12,429 nt of DNA from Nitrospinae bacterium RIFCSPLOWO2_12_FULL_45_22. GTDB lineage: Bacteria; 2-12-FULL-45-22. The notes under the pieces are model-generated. The model did not search any database and was not told where the DNA came from. It was given only the letters and a program-made list of their open reading frames with translations. The position numbers were made by a program, and so were the translations under genes. The stretch is from the NCBI GenBank assembly GCA_001803565.1, contig MHDQ01000066.1, positions 1 to 12,429 on the forward strand, read 5' to 3'. Shown piece by piece: positions 3,246-12,139 of the stretch (positions are counted from its first letter, which is position 1; every line of letters starts with the position of its first letter).

Positions 3246-3293
3246 AAAAATCTTTGTCCTTAGGCCAGTTTTATCATTTGGGGCAAAAATATC

Positions 3294-3544
3294 GTAAGTA
3301 TTCAGTAAACCACGAGATTAACACAAGATTATCACAAGATTTTCTTCCTAATCTCTAAACTCTCCTCGCCAACATTTAGTAGCAAACCAACCCTCTTCCT
3401 GGTAGCCTTCAAATAATTTAAAAGTTGTGCCTCAGCATTAGCTGCACCAATAATCTTTTCAGTTATATCTTTATAGAGCCATTTCTCTTCATTATCTTGG
3501 GTAAATCTTGTGGTTTCATTAAACGGGGTTCAGTGAGTATTTAC
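3294..3544. mobile_element. Inverted-repeat element containing a decayed GxxExxY gene
   Basis: The ends are imperfect terminal repeats: GTAAGTATTCAGT at 3294-3306 and the complement of GTAAATACTCACT at 3532-3544. Just inside are arms made of a CACAAGATTA-type word: several copies at about 3308-3343 and one reverse copy, AAATCTTGTGGTTT, at 3503-3516. The interior encodes a fragment of a GxxExxY protein. The terminal sequence resembles those of the elements at 6217-6364 and 11739-11914. No transposase is present, so any movement would need help in trans. Confidence 0.6.
3332..3517 (-). pseudogene. Remnant of a GxxExxY (PD-(D/E)XK-like) protein gene
   Basis: Reading from 3517 to the TGA at 3334-3332 gives a 61-codon frame with no start codon. 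Two pieces match my recollection of the GxxExxY family. The first is LYKDITEKIIGAA, the usual N-terminal helix. It is joined directly to NAEAQLLNYLKATRKRVG and LLLNVG, the usual C-terminal part (typical form: EAQLLNYLKATGxKVGLLINFG). The middle of the protein, including the GxxExxY motif and the nuclease-like core, is missing. This suggests an internal deletion plus loss of the start. Intact members have about 120-130 residues and no established function. The last codons and the stop lie in the CACAAGATTA word array of the enclosing element. Confidence 0.75.
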
Positions 3545-3598
3545 ATCAAATCTTACCATAGTCCAAGCAAAAACAGTGAAGTTTATTATCATATTTTC

Positions 3599-4642: not shown

Positions 4643-4784
4643 CTAATGATTCAATGATTTGGGTGTGGCTATTTTCTGTCAGAGAGACCCGTAACTCAAC
4701 CCTTCAGGGTTGACCAATCAGGGCTAAAGCCCCGAGTTACACCAACTTTATGACAAAGAATAGCCATACCCTAATGATTTAATG
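4642..4784. mobile_element. Nested-hairpin element flanked by 15-bp direct repeats
   Basis: Direct repeats CCTAATGATTCAATG (4642-4656) and CCTAATGATTTAATG (4770-4784) differ at one base. Between them an outer stem pairs 4661-4680 with 4752-4771, with about 17 of 20 positions matching. A second stem pairs GTAACTC (4691-4697) with GAGTTAC (4734-4740). It encloses two small hairpins, CAACCC-TTCA-GGGTTG (4697-4712) and GGGCT-AA-AGCCC (4721-4732). The layout resembles a compact branched fold. It looks like a small inserted repeat with a target duplication, although the second direct repeat touches the outer stem. It carries no gene. Confidence 0.6.
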
Positions 4785-6182: not shown

Positions 6183-6216
6183 CTTCCCGTTAACCCTTTT
6201 AAACCATAAAAATATA

Positions 6217-6364
6217 GTAAGCGTTCAGTTGTCAGCAGTCAGTCTTCAGCTAAATTAATCGTGAGGCGTAAGGAGTAAGAAAAATTTCTACTCATGCCTT
6301 ACGATAAGTTTTGCTGACCGCTGACAACTGACGGCTCAGCGGTAAATACTACCCTAAACGCTTA
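6217..6364. mobile_element. Inverted-repeat element between the tonB-like and vWA genes
   Basis: The ends are GTAAGCGTTCAGT (6217-6229) and the complement of TAAGCGTTTAGGG (6352-6364). Inside are arms of a GTCAGCAGTCAG-type word: 6226-6242 pairs with 6314-6330 at 16 of 17 positions. The centre has GTGAGGCGTAAGG-type words facing CATGCCTTAC, making an inner imperfect stem. There is no gene inside. The left end closely resembles those of the elements at 3294 and 11740. The element fills nearly the whole gap and ends 5 bp before the tonB-like stop codon. Confidence 0.65.
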
Positions 6365-6369
6365 TTTTG

Positions 6370-7113: not shown

Positions 7114-7519
7114 TCACTGATTTCTTTGGTAAGGCAGCAATGGCTATCCTCTCTATCCCGGCTACCTTTGCTGCATCCATAACCTCTACTACCCGGCCAT
7201 GCAATACTTCTTTATCGGCGCTGATAATCAAAAATGCCTCTTTATTGGCCGTCACTTCTTTCTTCAACTGGGTCTCAAATGCCTTCAGCGGAACCTTTTT
7301 GTCCCGGAAGAATAGGCTACCATCCCTGGTAATAAGGATTACCAGCTCTTTTCTTATGCTAGACTCAATAGTAGTGGCCTTGGGCAGGTCCACTTTTATG
7401 CCGGGCTGGAAGACAAAAGATGAGGTCAGCATAAAAAAGATCAGCAGGAGCAAGACACAATCTACCAGCGGAGTAATATCAAAAGTCGCCCTAACTCTTT
7501 TTCTGCGAGAGAACCACAT
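7100..7519 (-). CDS. exbD: ExbD/TolR-family proton channel subunit
   Basis: The protein has 139 residues, a normal length. A basic cytoplasmic start (MWFSRRKRVR) precedes a single membrane helix (about 15-36, ITPLVDCVLLLLIFFMLTSS). That helix carries Asp20, the proton-handling aspartate of the family. Residues 37-139 form the periplasmic domain (VDLPKATT... and LIISADKEVLHGRVVEVMDAAK). It starts 29 bp inside the end of exbB and overlaps the tonB-like gene at its 3' end, so the three are one translationally coupled unit. Sequence alone does not fully separate ExbD from TolR. The adjacent TonB-type C-terminal domain favours ExbD, while the nearby TPR protein could fit a Tol-type system. Confidence 0.92.
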   Translation of the reverse strand: MWFSRRKRVRATFDITPLVDCVLLLLIFFMLTSSFVFQPGIKVDLPKATTIESSIRKELVILITRDGSLFFRDKKVPLKAFETQLKKEVTANKEAFLIISADKEVLHGRVVEVMDAAKVAGIERIAIAALPKKSVNGAQ

Positions 7520-8165
7520 CTTCTCTATCCTTTTCCCAGAATACTTCTAGAATATCCAGCGAGTTTTGTTCCATATCTAAAGTCAAAGAGTCTACCTTAT
7601 TTATAAAATAATTATAAAATAGCTGACTGGGGATGGCTACGGTCAAACCTGCCGCGGTAGTGAGTAATGCCTCCGAGATACCGCTGGCTAAGGCCGTAGG
7701 TTCTCCTACACCCCGTAAGGCAATGGTATAAAAGGCCCGGATCATACCTGTGACAGTCCCTAGCAACCCTAACAGGGGGGCAATGCTAACAATAGTCCCC
7801 AGGGTAGCCAAATGCCTCTCTAATACTCTTACCTCTTGCCGACCTGCTTCACTAACAGCTTCCTTGATTTCAGCTTTAGGCTGGTTAATATTTTTGATGG
7901 CAGCCAGGACAATGCGACTCATAGGAGAAGAGTTTTTTTGGCAAAGCTCTATAATATCTGCGATCCTTTCTATCCGGATTAGATCCTGGACCCTGAACAG
8001 GGTCTCAGGTCTTATTATTCGCCCTCGACGTAAACTGATGAGCCGCTCGATGATTATAGCCAGGGACAATATAGAACAAAAAAGGATGGGATACATTACT
8101 GGCCCACCTTTAATAAATAAGTCTATCAATCTCTCCCCACCAAATATGCCCTCTATCCCTTCCAT
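7491..8165 (-). CDS. exbB: ExbB/TolQ-family proton channel subunit
   Basis: The protein forms the inner-membrane channel that uses the proton gradient to drive the TonB-like protein. It has 224 residues with the usual three membrane segments: about 21-43, 119-142 and 165-188. A cytoplasmic domain lies between the first two. The family signature APLLGLLGTVTGMI is at 129-142, with the polar Thr137 and Thr139, followed by GISEALLTTAAGLTVAIP at 162-179. The ATG has a strong ribosome binding site, AAGGAGGAAGAG. The gene begins 42 bp after the S23-family gene, and a tandem-word array lies in that gap. It overlaps exbD by 29 bp. Confidence 0.94.
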   Translation of the reverse strand: MEGIEGIFGGERLIDLFIKGGPVMYPILFCSILSLAIIIERLISLRRGRIIRPETLFRVQDLIRIERIADIIELCQKNSSPMSRIVLAAIKNINQPKAEIKEAVSEAGRQEVRVLERHLATLGTIVSIAPLLGLLGTVTGMIRAFYTIALRGVGEPTALASGISEALLTTAAGLTVAIPSQLFYNYFINKVDSLTLDMEQNSLDILEVFWEKDREDVVLSQKKS

Positions 8166-8182
8166 CTCTTCCTCCTTAAGTA

Positions 8183-8223
8183 AGTTCTAGGTTCTAGGTT
8201 CTAAGTTCTAGGTTCTAGGTTTT
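8183..8223. repeat. Tandem array of a GTTCTAG-type word, left flank of the S23 gene
   Basis: The words AGTTCTAG, GTTCTAG, GTTCTAAG, TTCTAG and GTTCTAG follow one another on the plus strand. The array overlaps the last codons and the stop of the S23-family gene and ends shortly before the exbB ribosome binding site. The same words occur in reverse orientation at 8591-8634. Confidence 0.85.
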
Positions 8224-8576
8224 CGCAGGTATCTGATAAAACCATTGATAAGATTAATTACAGTATTTGCTTGGTTATAAATACTATCGAACTCTTCTAT
8301 AGAGAGATATTTTCTATCAAGAGCCACGTACATATGACTTTTAACCTCAGATACAGAAGCCCTTGCTATTATCAAGAATTGGATAAATTCCTTATTTGTC
8401 TCTCGATCAAAACCCTCGCTGATATTGGACATCGCCGAGATAGAGGCCCGTCGTATCTGATCCCTTAACCCATAATCGTTAGAAAAGTTACCATTATTAG
8501 AGACATCATAGATCATATTTACCAATTTCCTGGCCTCTCTCCATGCATCTATATCCTCAAACTTCTCTATCTTCAT
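8208..8576 (-). CDS. S23 / four-helix-bundle protein (23S rRNA intervening-sequence family)
   Basis: This 122-residue protein of the S23 or IVP family was first noted in intervening sequences within 23S rRNA genes. It is now known as a widespread stand-alone gene of uncertain function. The family pattern is clear: FEDIDAWREARKLVNMIY near the start, then LRDQIRRASISAMSNISEGF, then FIQFLIIARASVSEVKSHMY, then a last helix, consistent with four helices. The ATG has GGGGAG and AAGG upstream. The final residues, KPRT, and the stop are encoded by the flanking GTTCTAG-type array. An inverted copy of the array lies upstream, so the gene sits in a bracketed cassette between the TPR and exbB genes. There is no rRNA here, and a direct role in the neighbouring envelope system is doubtful. 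Confidence 0.88.
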   Translation of the reverse strand: MKIEKFEDIDAWREARKLVNMIYDVSNNGNFSNDYGLRDQIRRASISAMSNISEGFDRETNKEFIQFLIIARASVSEVKSHMYVALDRKYLSIEEFDSIYNQANTVINLINGFIRYLRKPRT

Positions 8577-8590
8577 AACCTTACTCCCCT

Positions 8591-8634
8591 AACTTAGCAC
8601 TTAGCACCTAGAACTTAGAACCTAGAACTTTTTT
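8591..8634. repeat. Tandem array of the GTTCTAG-type word, right flank of the S23 gene, inverted
   Basis: On the plus strand the array reads AACTTAG, CACTTAG, CACCTAG, AACTTAG, AACCTAG, AACTTTTT. Its complement repeats the words of the array at 8183-8223, so the two are in opposite orientation around the S23-family gene. The array supplies the TAG stop of the TPR gene at 8624-8622 and ends 14 bp upstream of the S23 start. Confidence 0.85.
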
Positions 8635-11600
8635 TCTAGGCGCTCTTTGATCTCGGCAATCTTTTTTTTGACCAATTCTCTCTTTCCCGGATCTTTGCCC
8701 TCCTTTACCACCCTCTGGTAAATACTCAGGGCCTCAGACCATCTTTGTAGTTGTTCATAATTTTGCCCGGCCTTGATCAATGCCTCAGTAGATAGCTCTT
8801 TCTGTTCAGGATAGAGATAAGCCACTTTTAGATACTCTTCTATACCCTTCTGATACTCAGCAGCCCGGGTATAAGAATCGGCCAATTTGAAATGGGCCCT
8901 GGCACTTACTTCCTTATCAGGCGACTGGGTAGCTTTAGCAAACCACTCCTGCGCCTTTGCCAGTTCATTTTTCTCTGTGGATATGTCTCCCAGCGCTAGA
9001 TAGCTCCTGAAAGAATACGGCTCTTGGGGGAAGCTAGCTATCACCTTCTGGAAATAAGCTACCGCCTTATCCTTCTGACCGGATGAATAGAGGCAGGAGC
9101 CAATATAATAGAGGGCCTGGGGCACTAGGGGATGCTGAGAAAATTCTGCAATAAACCGCTCAAACCCATAACTGGCCTTTTGATATTCTCGGAGATAGAA
9201 GTTTGCTTCAGCCGTCTTGAACTGTGCTACTGGCCTGAGGCTACTGGCTGGATAGGATTCCAGGAGGCGCTGATAGGAGCGTAGAGCCGAGGCATAGTCT
9301 TTTGCCTGAAAATCCAATTCGCCTATCTGGAAAAAGGCCTTATCAGCTTCCGGGTTCTGGGGAAATACTTCTATGATAGCTTGATACATCTTCCTGGCTC
9401 CAGCGGTATCGCCTTCGGCTAATTGCTGTTCGCCCATCTGATACCTCAGGGTCATACTGAAGAGATGATGAGAATAACGGGTGAGGAATTTCTGGCTCAA
9501 GTCAAAAAACCCTTTTTTCTGGCCTTGTTGCAGGACGGTCTGGATAATAGCATATTCCGGTTCCGCTATCTGAGGATCAGAAGGATAGCTATTTATGATC
9601 TCCTGATAGGTCTTTAATGCCTGCGTATAATCCTTTTCGTTATAATAAGAATCGCCTATAGCCATCGAGGCCCGGAAGGCATAAGGGCTTTTGGGATAGT
9701 TTATAACCACCTTTTTCAACTCATTCCGCGCCACCGGGTAATTCTTTTGCAGAAAATAAGACATCCCATACCAGTACTGGGCATCATCACTCCATTCGCC
9801 CGGAGGTGACTTGGCTAATAGCCCCTCAAAGGCCCTCCTGGCTTCAGGATAATCCTCTCTTTTATAGCTGATCCACCCTAGTTGAAAAAGGGCTCCCTCC
9901 TGTAGACTACTCTGCGGAAATTGCTGTAAAAATCTCTGGAAATGGGTATAGGCCCGATCATATTCTTTAAGATTAAAATAGCACTCACCCAGCCGGAAAA
10001 GGGCCTCAGGCAGCAAGGTACTGTTAGGATATTTATCTATCAATTGCTGGAACAAGGGGGCGGCTTGTTGCCATTTCTCAGTGCGGTACAAGACCCAGGC
10101 CTTGCCATATAAGGCATAATCGGCCTTCTGTCCTTCAGGCGAGATAGCCCCATAGGCCTGCAGGGCTCGGCTAAACTCCTCTTGCTGGAAGCGGGATTCG
10201 GCCAGCCAGAAATTGGCCTCATCTATAAAAGGTGAGTCCGGGAATAGTTGTAAGAAACCTTCCAGGGCTTGGGCAGCCAGTTGATATTCGCCGGCTTGAT
10301 AATAGGATAAGCCTATACGTAACAGGGCCTTCTGATCAAGCTGTAGCGGCTTAACGCCGGTAGCTAGAAACTTTTCTGACTGGCGATAATACTCTATCGC
10401 CTTATGATACTCTTTGATCTGGTAATGACCTTCGCCTAACAAGAATAAGACCAGGGGCTTCAGGGAACTATCCGGATAATCCTTCAACAACTGACCGAAT
10501 ACCCGGATAGCCTCAGGGAAATCTTTTTGCTCTATCTGATAAGCCCCGACTTCGAATATAGCCTTATCCAGCCAGGGGTCCTGATGAGGGTGTTGAGTCT
10601 GGTAGGTTGACAGGAGGGCGGTAGCTTTAGGCAGATTCTTTAGTCCCAGGTAAGCCCGCATCTTGCCTATCAATACCGAGCCCTGGAAGCCACTCTGGGG
10701 GAAGTGCTTTTCTAGCTCCTCCCAGCTTGCTAATGCCTTAGCAAAGTCCTTTATATTAACCTGAGACCAGCCAATCCCATATAGGGCCCGCTCTGCTAAA
10801 GGGCTTGACGGATATTTTTGCCAATATTCTTCATACCGCCTCAGGGCATTAGGATAATCCCGGGCATAATAGAGACATTCCGCCTGCCAGAACAACGCAC
10901 TGTCCACTAAGGGACTGGTAGGTAATTTTTCTCTCAGCTCTTTAAATGCCTGACTGGCCTCACTAAATTTATCTAAGGTATAAAGGGCACCTCCACGCAA
11001 ATAGTAGCCCGACGAAACCAGGGCCGAGTTATTAACCGAGGAGGCATGCTTAATCACGAGGGCATATGCCTTCTCTGCCTGCAAATAATCCTTTTTTTCT
11101 AGATATGTCCAACCTGAAGAAAGATAGGCATAAGGGATATAGCGATGCTCAGGATGGTCTCTTATCAATTCTTCATAAGCCTTCAGGGCCTGAGCCGGCT
11201 CTTTTCGGTTGCTATACGCCTCACCCAACCAGTAGAGGGCTTCACCCCGGTATCTCCCCTGGCGATATTTACGCAGCAAAGTCTCCCAATTCTTTATCGC
11301 CCCAGTAAAATCCTCTTTCTGGAACTTATGCAACCCGATCTTATAATAGGCCTTTTCCTGTACCAGCAGCTTCATAATAGAGGCAGTTACAGCATTACGA
11401 TAGAACCAGCCGGGGCGCTTCTCCTGCGGAATATCCTTAACTATGGGTGTAGTCTCCAGGAATGCCAGTTCCTGCCTTATATCGGGTCTTTCTTTCTCCA
11501 GGCCATACCATATCTCCTGGGGCTGTAGCTTTTCTTTCTCCTCTTTTAGGACAGTAGTATCCTCACCAATTATTACTACCTCTGGCAACTGGATAGGCTC

Positions 11601-11687
11601 CTGAGCCTTTTTCTCCTGGGCCCAGATGCTCGGGCCAAGGGCAATCAGGATAATAATTACCAGGAAATAAAAGATTCTTTTCCTCAT
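8622..11687 (-). CDS. Large exported TPR-repeat protein
   Basis: The protein has 1021 residues when started at the ATG at 11687-11685, which has TAAGG at good spacing. A GTG at 11702 would add five residues and lacks a binding site. The first 24 residues (MRKRIFYFLVIIILIALG, then PSIWAQ) are a signal peptide. Mature residues 31-45 (PIQLPEVVIIGEDTT) resemble the LPEVVV-G stretch near the N-terminus of many TonB-dependent proteins. From about residue 110 to the end there are roughly 24 TPR-like units of 33-37 residues, with repeated patterns such as GDSYYNEKDYTQALKTYQEI, and a short basic tail. The overall form resembles an expanded YbgF/CpoB or BamD-type TPR scaffold in the periplasm. It lies upstream of exbB-exbD-tonB. 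Its stop codon falls inside a repeat array. The partner is unknown. Confidence 0.9.
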   Translation of the reverse strand: MRKRIFYFLVIIILIALGPSIWAQEKKAQEPIQLPEVVIIGEDTTVLKEEKEKLQPQEIWYGLEKERPDIRQELAFLETTPIVKDIPQEKRPGWFYRNAVTASIMKLLVQEKAYYKIGLHKFQKEDFTGAIKNWETLLRKYRQGRYRGEALYWLGEAYSNRKEPAQALKAYEELIRDHPEHRYIPYAYLSSGWTYLEKKDYLQAEKAYALVIKHASSVNNSALVSSGYYLRGGALYTLDKFSEASQAFKELREKLPTSPLVDSALFWQAECLYYARDYPNALRRYEEYWQKYPSSPLAERALYGIGWSQVNIKDFAKALASWEELEKHFPQSGFQGSVLIGKMRAYLGLKNLPKATALLSTYQTQHPHQDPWLDKAIFEVGAYQIEQKDFPEAIRVFGQLLKDYPDSSLKPLVLFLLGEGHYQIKEYHKAIEYYRQSEKFLATGVKPLQLDQKALLRIGLSYYQAGEYQLAAQALEGFLQLFPDSPFIDEANFWLAESRFQQEEFSRALQAYGAISPEGQKADYALYGKAWVLYRTEKWQQAAPLFQQLIDKYPNSTLLPEALFRLGECYFNLKEYDRAYTHFQRFLQQFPQSSLQEGALFQLGWISYKREDYPEARRAFEGLLAKSPPGEWSDDAQYWYGMSYFLQKNYPVARNELKKVVINYPKSPYAFRASMAIGDSYYNEKDYTQALKTYQEIINSYPSDPQIAEPEYAIIQTVLQQGQKKGFFDLSQKFLTRYSHHLFSMTLRYQMGEQQLAEGDTAGARKMYQAIIEVFPQNPEADKAFFQIGELDFQAKDYASALRSYQRLLESYPASSLRPVAQFKTAEANFYLREYQKASYGFERFIAEFSQHPLVPQALYYIGSCLYSSGQKDKAVAYFQKVIASFPQEPYSFRSYLALGDISTEKNELAKAQEWFAKATQSPDKEVSARAHFKLADSYTRAAEYQKGIEEYLKVAYLYPEQKELSTEALIKAGQNYEQLQRWSEALSIYQRVVKEGKDPGKRELVKKKIAEIKERLEKKF

Positions 11688-11738
11688 AGCTAACCTTACC
11701 ACCTAAAATTTATTATCCCCCATTTCAATATTAAAATT

Positions 11739-11914
11739 AGTAACCGTTCAGCCACCAAGGCACTAAGTCACCAAGAAGCTCAAAACTTAAAATGCAAAGT
11801 CTAAAATTAAGGTAATTATTCCTCAGCTTTGCACTTTTAGCTTTGCGTTTTACATTTCCTTGGTGCCCTTGTGTCTTAGTGGCTGATAAAGATTAGCCGG
11901 GTGAACGGTTACTA
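11739..11914. mobile_element. Inverted-repeat element upstream of the TPR gene
   Basis: The terminal repeats are perfect over 12 bp: AGTAACCGTTCA (11739-11750) and TGAACGGTTACT (11902-11913). Next come arms of CACCAAGGCAC-type words: 11749-11775 pairs with 11859-11885 at 22 of 27 positions. The centre holds words of the type AAAATGCAAAG facing CTTTGCGTTTT, forming an inner imperfect stem. No gene lies inside. The element ends 3 bp before the DUF2283 stop codon. Its ends resemble those at 3294-3544 and 6217-6364. Confidence 0.7.
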
Positions 11915-11917
11915 AAA

Positions 11918-12139
11918 TTATACCGGCTGAGCTGATTCACGATAGATGGCCAGATTAATAATCTGGGTGGGATCTTTTGTTGTCCTTTTACTGGCATCAA
12001 GGATTTCAATATCCACAATTCGTTTATCTTTAGCATAGTCAATGATTATTCCATCTACTTCTAACGAATCATCAATCTCCACATCCGGTAGAATTTCTAT
12101 ATTAAGCAAGTCATGAACTGGATCATACTCTATTTTCAT
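11918..12139 (-). CDS. DUF2283-family small protein
   Basis: This 73-residue protein matches the DUF2283 pattern: MKIEYDPVHDLLNIEIL, then a short acidic hairpin (EIDDSLEVDGIIIDY), then RIVDIEILDASKRT. The family has no settled biochemical role. Its members are often paired with a DUF4258-type gene and are suspected by some to belong to toxin-antitoxin-like pairs. No partner is visible here. The ATG is preceded by AAGG and GGG within about 15 bases. The stop lies 3 bp from an inverted-repeat element, beyond which the TPR gene begins, so the gene may be transcribed on its own. Confidence 0.85.
   Translation of the reverse strand: MKIEYDPVHDLLNIEILPDVEIDDSLEVDGIIIDYAKDKRIVDIEILDASKRTTKDPTQIINLAIYRESAQPV

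Follow-up and report, generated by a model that had tools for sequence, protein, structure and literature searches.

An S23 gene between inverted heptamer arrays in a Nitrospinae genome resembles the intervening sequences of ribosomal RNA

S23 is known mainly from insertions in ribosomal RNA, the intervening sequences (IVSs), whose long stem is cut out by RNase III. To our knowledge, the origin and role of rRNA IVSs have been open questions since about 1990, and neither the S23 (four-helix-bundle) family nor the GxxExxY family, both common in environmental bacteria, has a known function. We also know of no nuclease or polymerase activity for S23. In diversity-generating retroelements, retrohoming is assisted by a DNA hairpin. 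The 23S rRNA IVSs of Coxiella and Leptospira lie in rRNA hairpins and are thought to be mobile or selfish (PMC4990558). In the Coxiella IVS, an S23 ORF sits in the stem with GACAGAT heptamers upstream of its start codon; strains vary in repeat number, and the ORF is seemingly untranslated (PMC4990558). The S23 protein 2gsc of Xanthomonas is a homopentamer of four-helix bundles (PMC4990558). S23 has structural homology to Avd of diversity-generating retroelements, with Avd of phage BPP-1 (PDB 4DWL) and S23 (2GSC) reported as structural homologues (PMC10053308).

We analysed a stretch of 12,429 nucleotides from Nitrospinae bacterium RIFCSPLOWO2_12_FULL_45_22 (contig MHDQ01000066.1), hereafter the window. 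On its minus strand, at 8208-8576, lies an intact S23 / 23S_rRNA_IVP four-helix-bundle gene of 122 aa, which matches PF05635 with an E value of 6.4e-34 (116.8 bits, cut-off 33.8) and the NCBIfam entry TIGR02436 (four helix bundle protein), and has 2gsc as a PDB relative (E 1.8e-16). PADLOC returned no match to a known defence protein for S23. The arm at the 3' end of the gene (8182-8221, plus strand) is an array of the word GTTCTAG, for which Tandem Repeats Finder reports period 7 and 5.4 copies at 8184-8221, while the inverted array at the 5' end (8591-8630, minus strand) has period 7, consensus AACTTAG, and 5.7 copies. The two arms form inverted repeats of 40 nt, 85% complementary and 369 nt apart, with a 30-nt core that is 93% complementary. 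Their inverted alignment score was 50, against a maximum of 37 among 2,935 random pairs with the same spacing in the same genome. Folded as RNA, the whole stem-loop element of arm, S23 and arm (8182-8630, minus strand) shows a 27-pair terminal stem enclosing S23 (z = -4.43 vs shuffles). The first-pass annotation had described an intact S23 gene between inverted GTTCTAG-type arrays, and both halves of that description hold.

The arrays extend into the coding sequences beside them. The last codons and stop of S23 (8208) are encoded by the arm 8182-8221, and the arm 8591-8630 overlaps the last codons and stop (8622) of the upstream host gene, a TPR-repeat protein gene (YbgF/BamD-like, 8622-11702, minus strand) whose terminus ...AAG TTC TAG falls within the first word of the array. 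The downstream host gene encodes an ExbB/TolQ proton channel (7491-8165, minus strand; PF01618, E 9.5e-34). It had been proposed that the arrays split a TPR-exbB junction, and the junction is indeed uninterrupted, with no cassette, in L023 and L024, the two genomes whose ExbB proteins are closest; both belong to distant lineages, as the collections contain no near relative of the host. Conservation of the cassette at this place in all relatives, which had also been considered, did not occur among these closest available junctions. The nearest ExbB is 53% identical and the one same-order genome is incomplete; a search for close relatives and a scan of named genomes with ExbB found no close empty site for the window cassette. 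An S23 ORF, complementary stem-forming termini and period-7 heptamers on both sides are hallmarks of an IVS, and all are present here, yet the cassette is not in a 23S rRNA hairpin: there is no rRNA in the window, and it sits between TPR and exbB.

The same anatomy recurs across this genome. It has nine S23 genes in total, divergent and at unrelated junctions, and twelve GxxExxY matches, seven of which are strongly truncated, all seven being C-terminal remnants. Flanks were inverted and mutually matching for 9/9 S23 genes and 11/12 GxxExxY copies or remnants; the sole exception among the 21 is cut by a contig end. This agrees with the earlier suggestion that the two families occupy the same kind of setting. 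The word changes from copy to copy nearly every time, with GTTCTAG, AGAACAAAG, CATTAGGT, ATAGCTG, GCGGAATTC and TTAGCAA around S23 and CACAAAGA, CACAGAGG, CGCAGATT, CAGGATAAA and CACGAGATTA around GxxExxY. A common end sequence is absent from the S23-bearing copies, each of which has a private word only. The change of word with each copy and the match to the anatomy of known rRNA IVSs both go beyond the first-pass annotation. The GxxExxY remnant noticed in the window is real: 3350-3439 matches PF13366, at positions 84-114 only. It lies within a small element (3290-3545, minus strand) with CACAAGATTA-type arms at 3311-3341 and, inverted, near 3494-3512, of which the genome sample holds at least three copies (further copies in L116 and L118). 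In the repeated element with ends like GTAAGTATTCAGTAAACC / GGGTTCAGTGAGTATTTAC (window 3290-3545, L116, L118 and L014), only the C-terminal third of GxxExxY is kept.

We then turned to 29 genomes that have no rank below domain in common with this one and that carry S23 homologues about 40-58% identical to the window protein. Inverted-matched flanks were found at 22/29 of these loci vs 2/28 ExbB loci (p 1.8e-6), and at 19/26 loci in a family-wide PF05635 sample vs 0/19 for Gp49, a small toxin family used as control (p 1.8e-6); p-values are approximate for several of the tests, in which the loci are related to one another. GxxExxY flanks beat all 200 shuffles in 21/25 cases, and the D...E-h-K motif expected of PD-(D/E)XK nucleases is kept in 24/25 GxxExxY proteins. 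A tabulation of S23 genes against flanking arrays thus upholds the proposed association for 19 of the 26 genes and not for the other seven (about a quarter), which have no detectable arms, a pattern that fits decay or loss. Both families are bracketed by arrays in distant genomes too, which supports the earlier idea of a repeat-based mobile system in which they are either the cargo or the functional part. Across genomes the commonest word period is 7, followed by 8 and 9, and the two arms agree in most elements; because one arm is an inverted copy of the other, the only meaningful polarity of the word relative to the gene is inward. Plasmid S23 copies in Calothrix, Nostoc and Riemerella have the same look, although the element ends in Calothrix are unreadable because the two plasmids with the same S23 have a 3.6-kb segment in common. 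A phage search gave no S23 match. As a separate observation, genome G009 has fifteen short S23 matches on contigs 2, 3, 7, 12 and 13, many of which form divergent pairs separated by some hundreds of bases, in contrast to the solitary copies of other genomes.

Within an element the arms stay matched, and between elements the words differ greatly. Both features would be expected if the arrays had a mutational origin, in which slippage makes the arrays, hairpin-templated repair copies one arm to the other, matched arms can therefore form beside any gene, and the gene association is secondary; the variation in repeat number between Coxiella strains (PMC4990558) points the same way. This explanation leaves open why S23 and GxxExxY are bracketed but Gp49 and ExbB are not, and it does not account for the dispersed copies or the insertions with short duplications described below. 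We therefore regard it as an improbable origin for the elements, though slippage and hairpin-templated repair may well be the route of word drift.

The word was found to follow the gene. With aligned arms only, and three nearest neighbours taken from the arms of other genomes, the gene family was correctly named in 49/59 cases (shuffled mean 28.7, maximum 39), while a bag-of-4-mer classification of whole flanks failed (59%) because the arms make up little of each flank. At the hyfC-FeS junction, in ten species of one family, S23 is present in nine and absent in one. In exchanged pairs at this junction the flanks are 86-95% identical and S23 63-72%; for G130/G391 and G267/G395, the flanking genes have 89-95% DNA identity but S23 only 67-68%, and the cassette has therefore been exchanged. 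In partial rank correlation the words here go with the S23 allele (0.65, permutation p 4e-4) and scarcely with the host (0.26), and G391 and G395, from different genera, have both the S23 type and ATTTACAATTTGG words in common. Because the words sort by gene family and, at an orthologous site, by S23 allele, these data argue for S23 as the functional part over S23 as cargo. At the ispG-proS junction of another family, S23 is intact in G362 and decayed in G232, and gene-less hairpins with other words are found in the sister species G094, G386 and G388, a series that records loss of the gene at this site. Just upstream, in the ispG coding region (L354-L358), arrays of different words (TCAATGT; GGTTAAC; CTACAAGC...CTGAAGC) were observed at one position in sister species, and the coding-region element of G388 is also present at its ispG-proS junction.

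An S23 dN/dS of 0.05-0.15 indicates strong purifying selection, and in co-directional gene pairs sense orientation prevails by 15:1 for S23 and 12:1 for GxxExxY. Together with the strong terminal stem, these are properties that an ordinary host gene might have if its arms were signals for transcript processing or stability and nothing moved. Against this, S23 has been swapped for a divergent allele, has decayed or is absent at orthologous junctions, this genome has nine divergent copies at unrelated junctions, and arms of the same type occur with no gene and inside other copies. This alternative is already disfavoured and is, in our estimate, highly improbable. The sense bias is consistent with read-through expression, since there is little space for a promoter next to the upstream arm, and it would also be consistent with an RNA step.

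The link to rRNA was examined with the Coxiella heptamer GACAGAT, used as a DNA pattern against named genomes. S23 lay within about 0.5 kb at only 5 of the 119 loci with this pattern, and the bare word is therefore not diagnostic. GACAGAT-bracketed S23 genes were found in one Saprospiraceae, one Elusimicrobia and one Bacteroidetes genome, and in Subsaxibacter GACAGAT adjoins an S23 gene between thrB and thrC. A Propionivibrio MAG has a GACAGAT S23 element inside its 23S gene, with arms matching at 32/34 positions, and a covariance-model alignment places the insertion site in the five-nucleotide tip loop of an LSU rRNA hairpin. Given the same arms, the same word and the same gene inside and outside rRNA, intergenic S23 elements and rRNA IVSs are, on this evidence, one kind of thing. 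We found no link between IVSs and intergenic S23 in the literature searched, which took in few subscription journals and preprints.

Repeats were surveyed in a genome sample of 1.31 Mb in pieces, about a third of the genome. A 940-kb sample gave 80 inverted repeats above threshold vs six in a mismatched control, and in the first sample dispersed repeat families take in 158/466 intergenic pieces. Most inverted-repeat elements of the genome sample lack any gene. Twelve element pairs were nested and five side by side, a biased count, because an element with an insertion in its arm escapes detection. In the window, gene-less inverted arrays, mostly nested and mostly of dispersed families, take up several of the larger gaps between genes. 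Nested arrays with outer CACGGATAAA and inner TTAGCATT words occupy 1475-1655, and an inverted repeat element from a family with 7 members in the genome sample lies at 4649-4783. At 6215-6365, outer GTTCAGTTGTCAGC words enclose inner CGTAAGGAGTAAG in an element of a 15-member family, and at 11732-11920 a further nested array has the outer end GTAACCGTTCAGCC, words CCACCAAGGCACTAAG and inner AAAACTTAAAATGC. A DUF2283 gene (PF10049, E 1e-12; 11918-12139, minus strand) adjoins this last element.

For the element at 11732-11920, an occupied counterpart exists in L052: there the loop of the hairpin (11737-11911; also in L073) is interrupted by a 120-bp hairpin and CTTA is duplicated, so that the window copy represents the empty site. 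Likewise, one hairpin is uninterrupted in L055 and L095, but in L123 its loop has taken up a 65-bp hairpin and TCCTA is duplicated. A third loop insertion separates L077 from L350. Another insertion, in L063, lies at a loop edge and has shared-type ends and a longer duplication, and those in L059 and L326 lie in arms. Across the six curated insertions, the target's loop was hit three times, a loop edge once and an arm twice, so that with few events and one rRNA copy a preference for loops is suggested, not proven. Target duplications were short at two gene-less insertions (TCCTA and CTTA) and longer at others; all came from gene-less copies, and no clean-duplication jump of an S23-bearing copy was seen.

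Many gene-less copies terminate in shared GTAANCGTTCAG-like ends that resemble ordinary transposon ends. Among copies of 100-300 bp, GTAANCGTTCAGC accounts for 56 ends in 1.3 Mb and GTAANNGTTTAGCC for 57. These copies, the L063 insertion, and the position of the GxxExxY remnant at 3350 within a repeated element are what would be expected if the arms were miniature inverted-repeat ends moved by a transposase in trans, with S23 and GxxExxY as passengers. However, no transposase was found between shared ends in the genome sample, where two long intervals contain ordinary genes, and the S23-bearing copies have their private words in place of a common end. A passenger role also leaves unexplained why words follow the S23 allele or the gene family, and we consider it unlikely. 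The transposase candidates between shared ends were TPR, GGDEF-like and acyl-CoA dehydrogenase-like genes, and were rejected. A further family without genes was observed in L081, L093, L110, L120, L123 and L346; its related copies vary in internal length and end in GTAACAGTTCACxGGG (21 such ends in 1.3 Mb).

We thus consider it probable that the window cassette is an IVS-type mobile stem-loop element whose S23 is a dedicated protein acting on its own arms. That the cassette is a mobile element is very likely, and that its S23 acts on the element's arms is rather probable. Each element has arms built from its own word, and that word goes with its S23 allele. There is good support for mobility of the class; the part of S23 in driving it, and the manner, we infer as follows. 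In their hairpin form, whether RNA or DNA, the arms would be recognised and bound by an oligomer of the element's own S23, which would help to install the element at new places, with existing hairpin tips among the preferred targets; such targeting is favoured on balance. Where an element lies in an operon or rRNA gene, RNase III could cut the long stem from the transcript, and the host would survive the insertion because the element can be excised in this way; for intergenic copies, this processing is presumed by analogy. An RNA intermediate is possible but rather doubtful. Gene-less hairpins would be non-autonomous or decayed relatives, and GxxExxY genes, with their PD-(D/E)XK nuclease motif, would run a parallel set with other words. 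More broadly, and only tentatively, we propose a pan-bacterial class of mobile stem-loops in which S23 or the nuclease-like GxxExxY partner would read a private, fast-changing arm word and place the element in hairpin tips, those of rRNA included. No transposase of a known kind would take part, and what is recognised would be the word arrays together with the shape of the hairpin. Since S23 is related to Avd of diversity-generating retroelements, the process might include an RNA or cDNA step.

With the same arms, word and gene in and out of rRNA, the question of what these gene families do and that of the origin and role of rRNA IVSs merge into a single one open to laboratory experiment, namely whether each S23 binds its own word. 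The link would also account for much of the repetitive intergenic DNA in genomes of this type, as in the 158/466 pieces above, and the recurrence of the element layout across distantly related bacteria offers a testable lead on the role of the S23 family.

Among known systems, the CPR rRNA-gene insertions (PMC11270868) are alike in occupying rRNA stem-loop sites and in that a few encode 23S_rRNA_IVP, but most carry LAGLIDADG or GIY-YIG genes and spread as introns or by homing. The Beggiatoaceae TAACTGA arrays (PMC4679880) are also intergenic tandem heptamers in many copies, but with one word genome-wide, in direct and not inverted orientation, and with no S23 link in that paper. Unlike diversity-generating retroelements, the S23 elements have no reverse transcriptase; none was found near S23, and the single RVT_1 match in the genome is on contig 291. 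That reverse transcriptase (L072) forms one portion of a large protein that also has TPR and primase-like stretches; it adjoins a gene that we read as resembling a cas6-type CRISPR gene. MITEs resemble our elements in being short, gene-less and dispersed, with inverted ends and, at the two gene-less insertions above, short target duplications. They differ in that the S23 copies have no fixed end sequence, end in tandem words and hold a partner gene. The fixed terminal repeats of MITEs or insertion sequences were not found in S23 copies, shared ends being present only in some gene-less copies, and no transposase of an autonomous copy was found in the sampled third or so of the genome, where the elements hold only S23 or GxxExxY. 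Compared with the 23S rRNA IVS, the window copy lies in an operon, its word is element-specific, and it has gene-less and GxxExxY-bearing relatives in large numbers; what they have in common is an S23 ORF in a stem of complementary ends, with tandem heptamers (GACAGAT in Coxiella). The window cassette is thus IVS-like in its working, yet by location it is no rRNA IVS.
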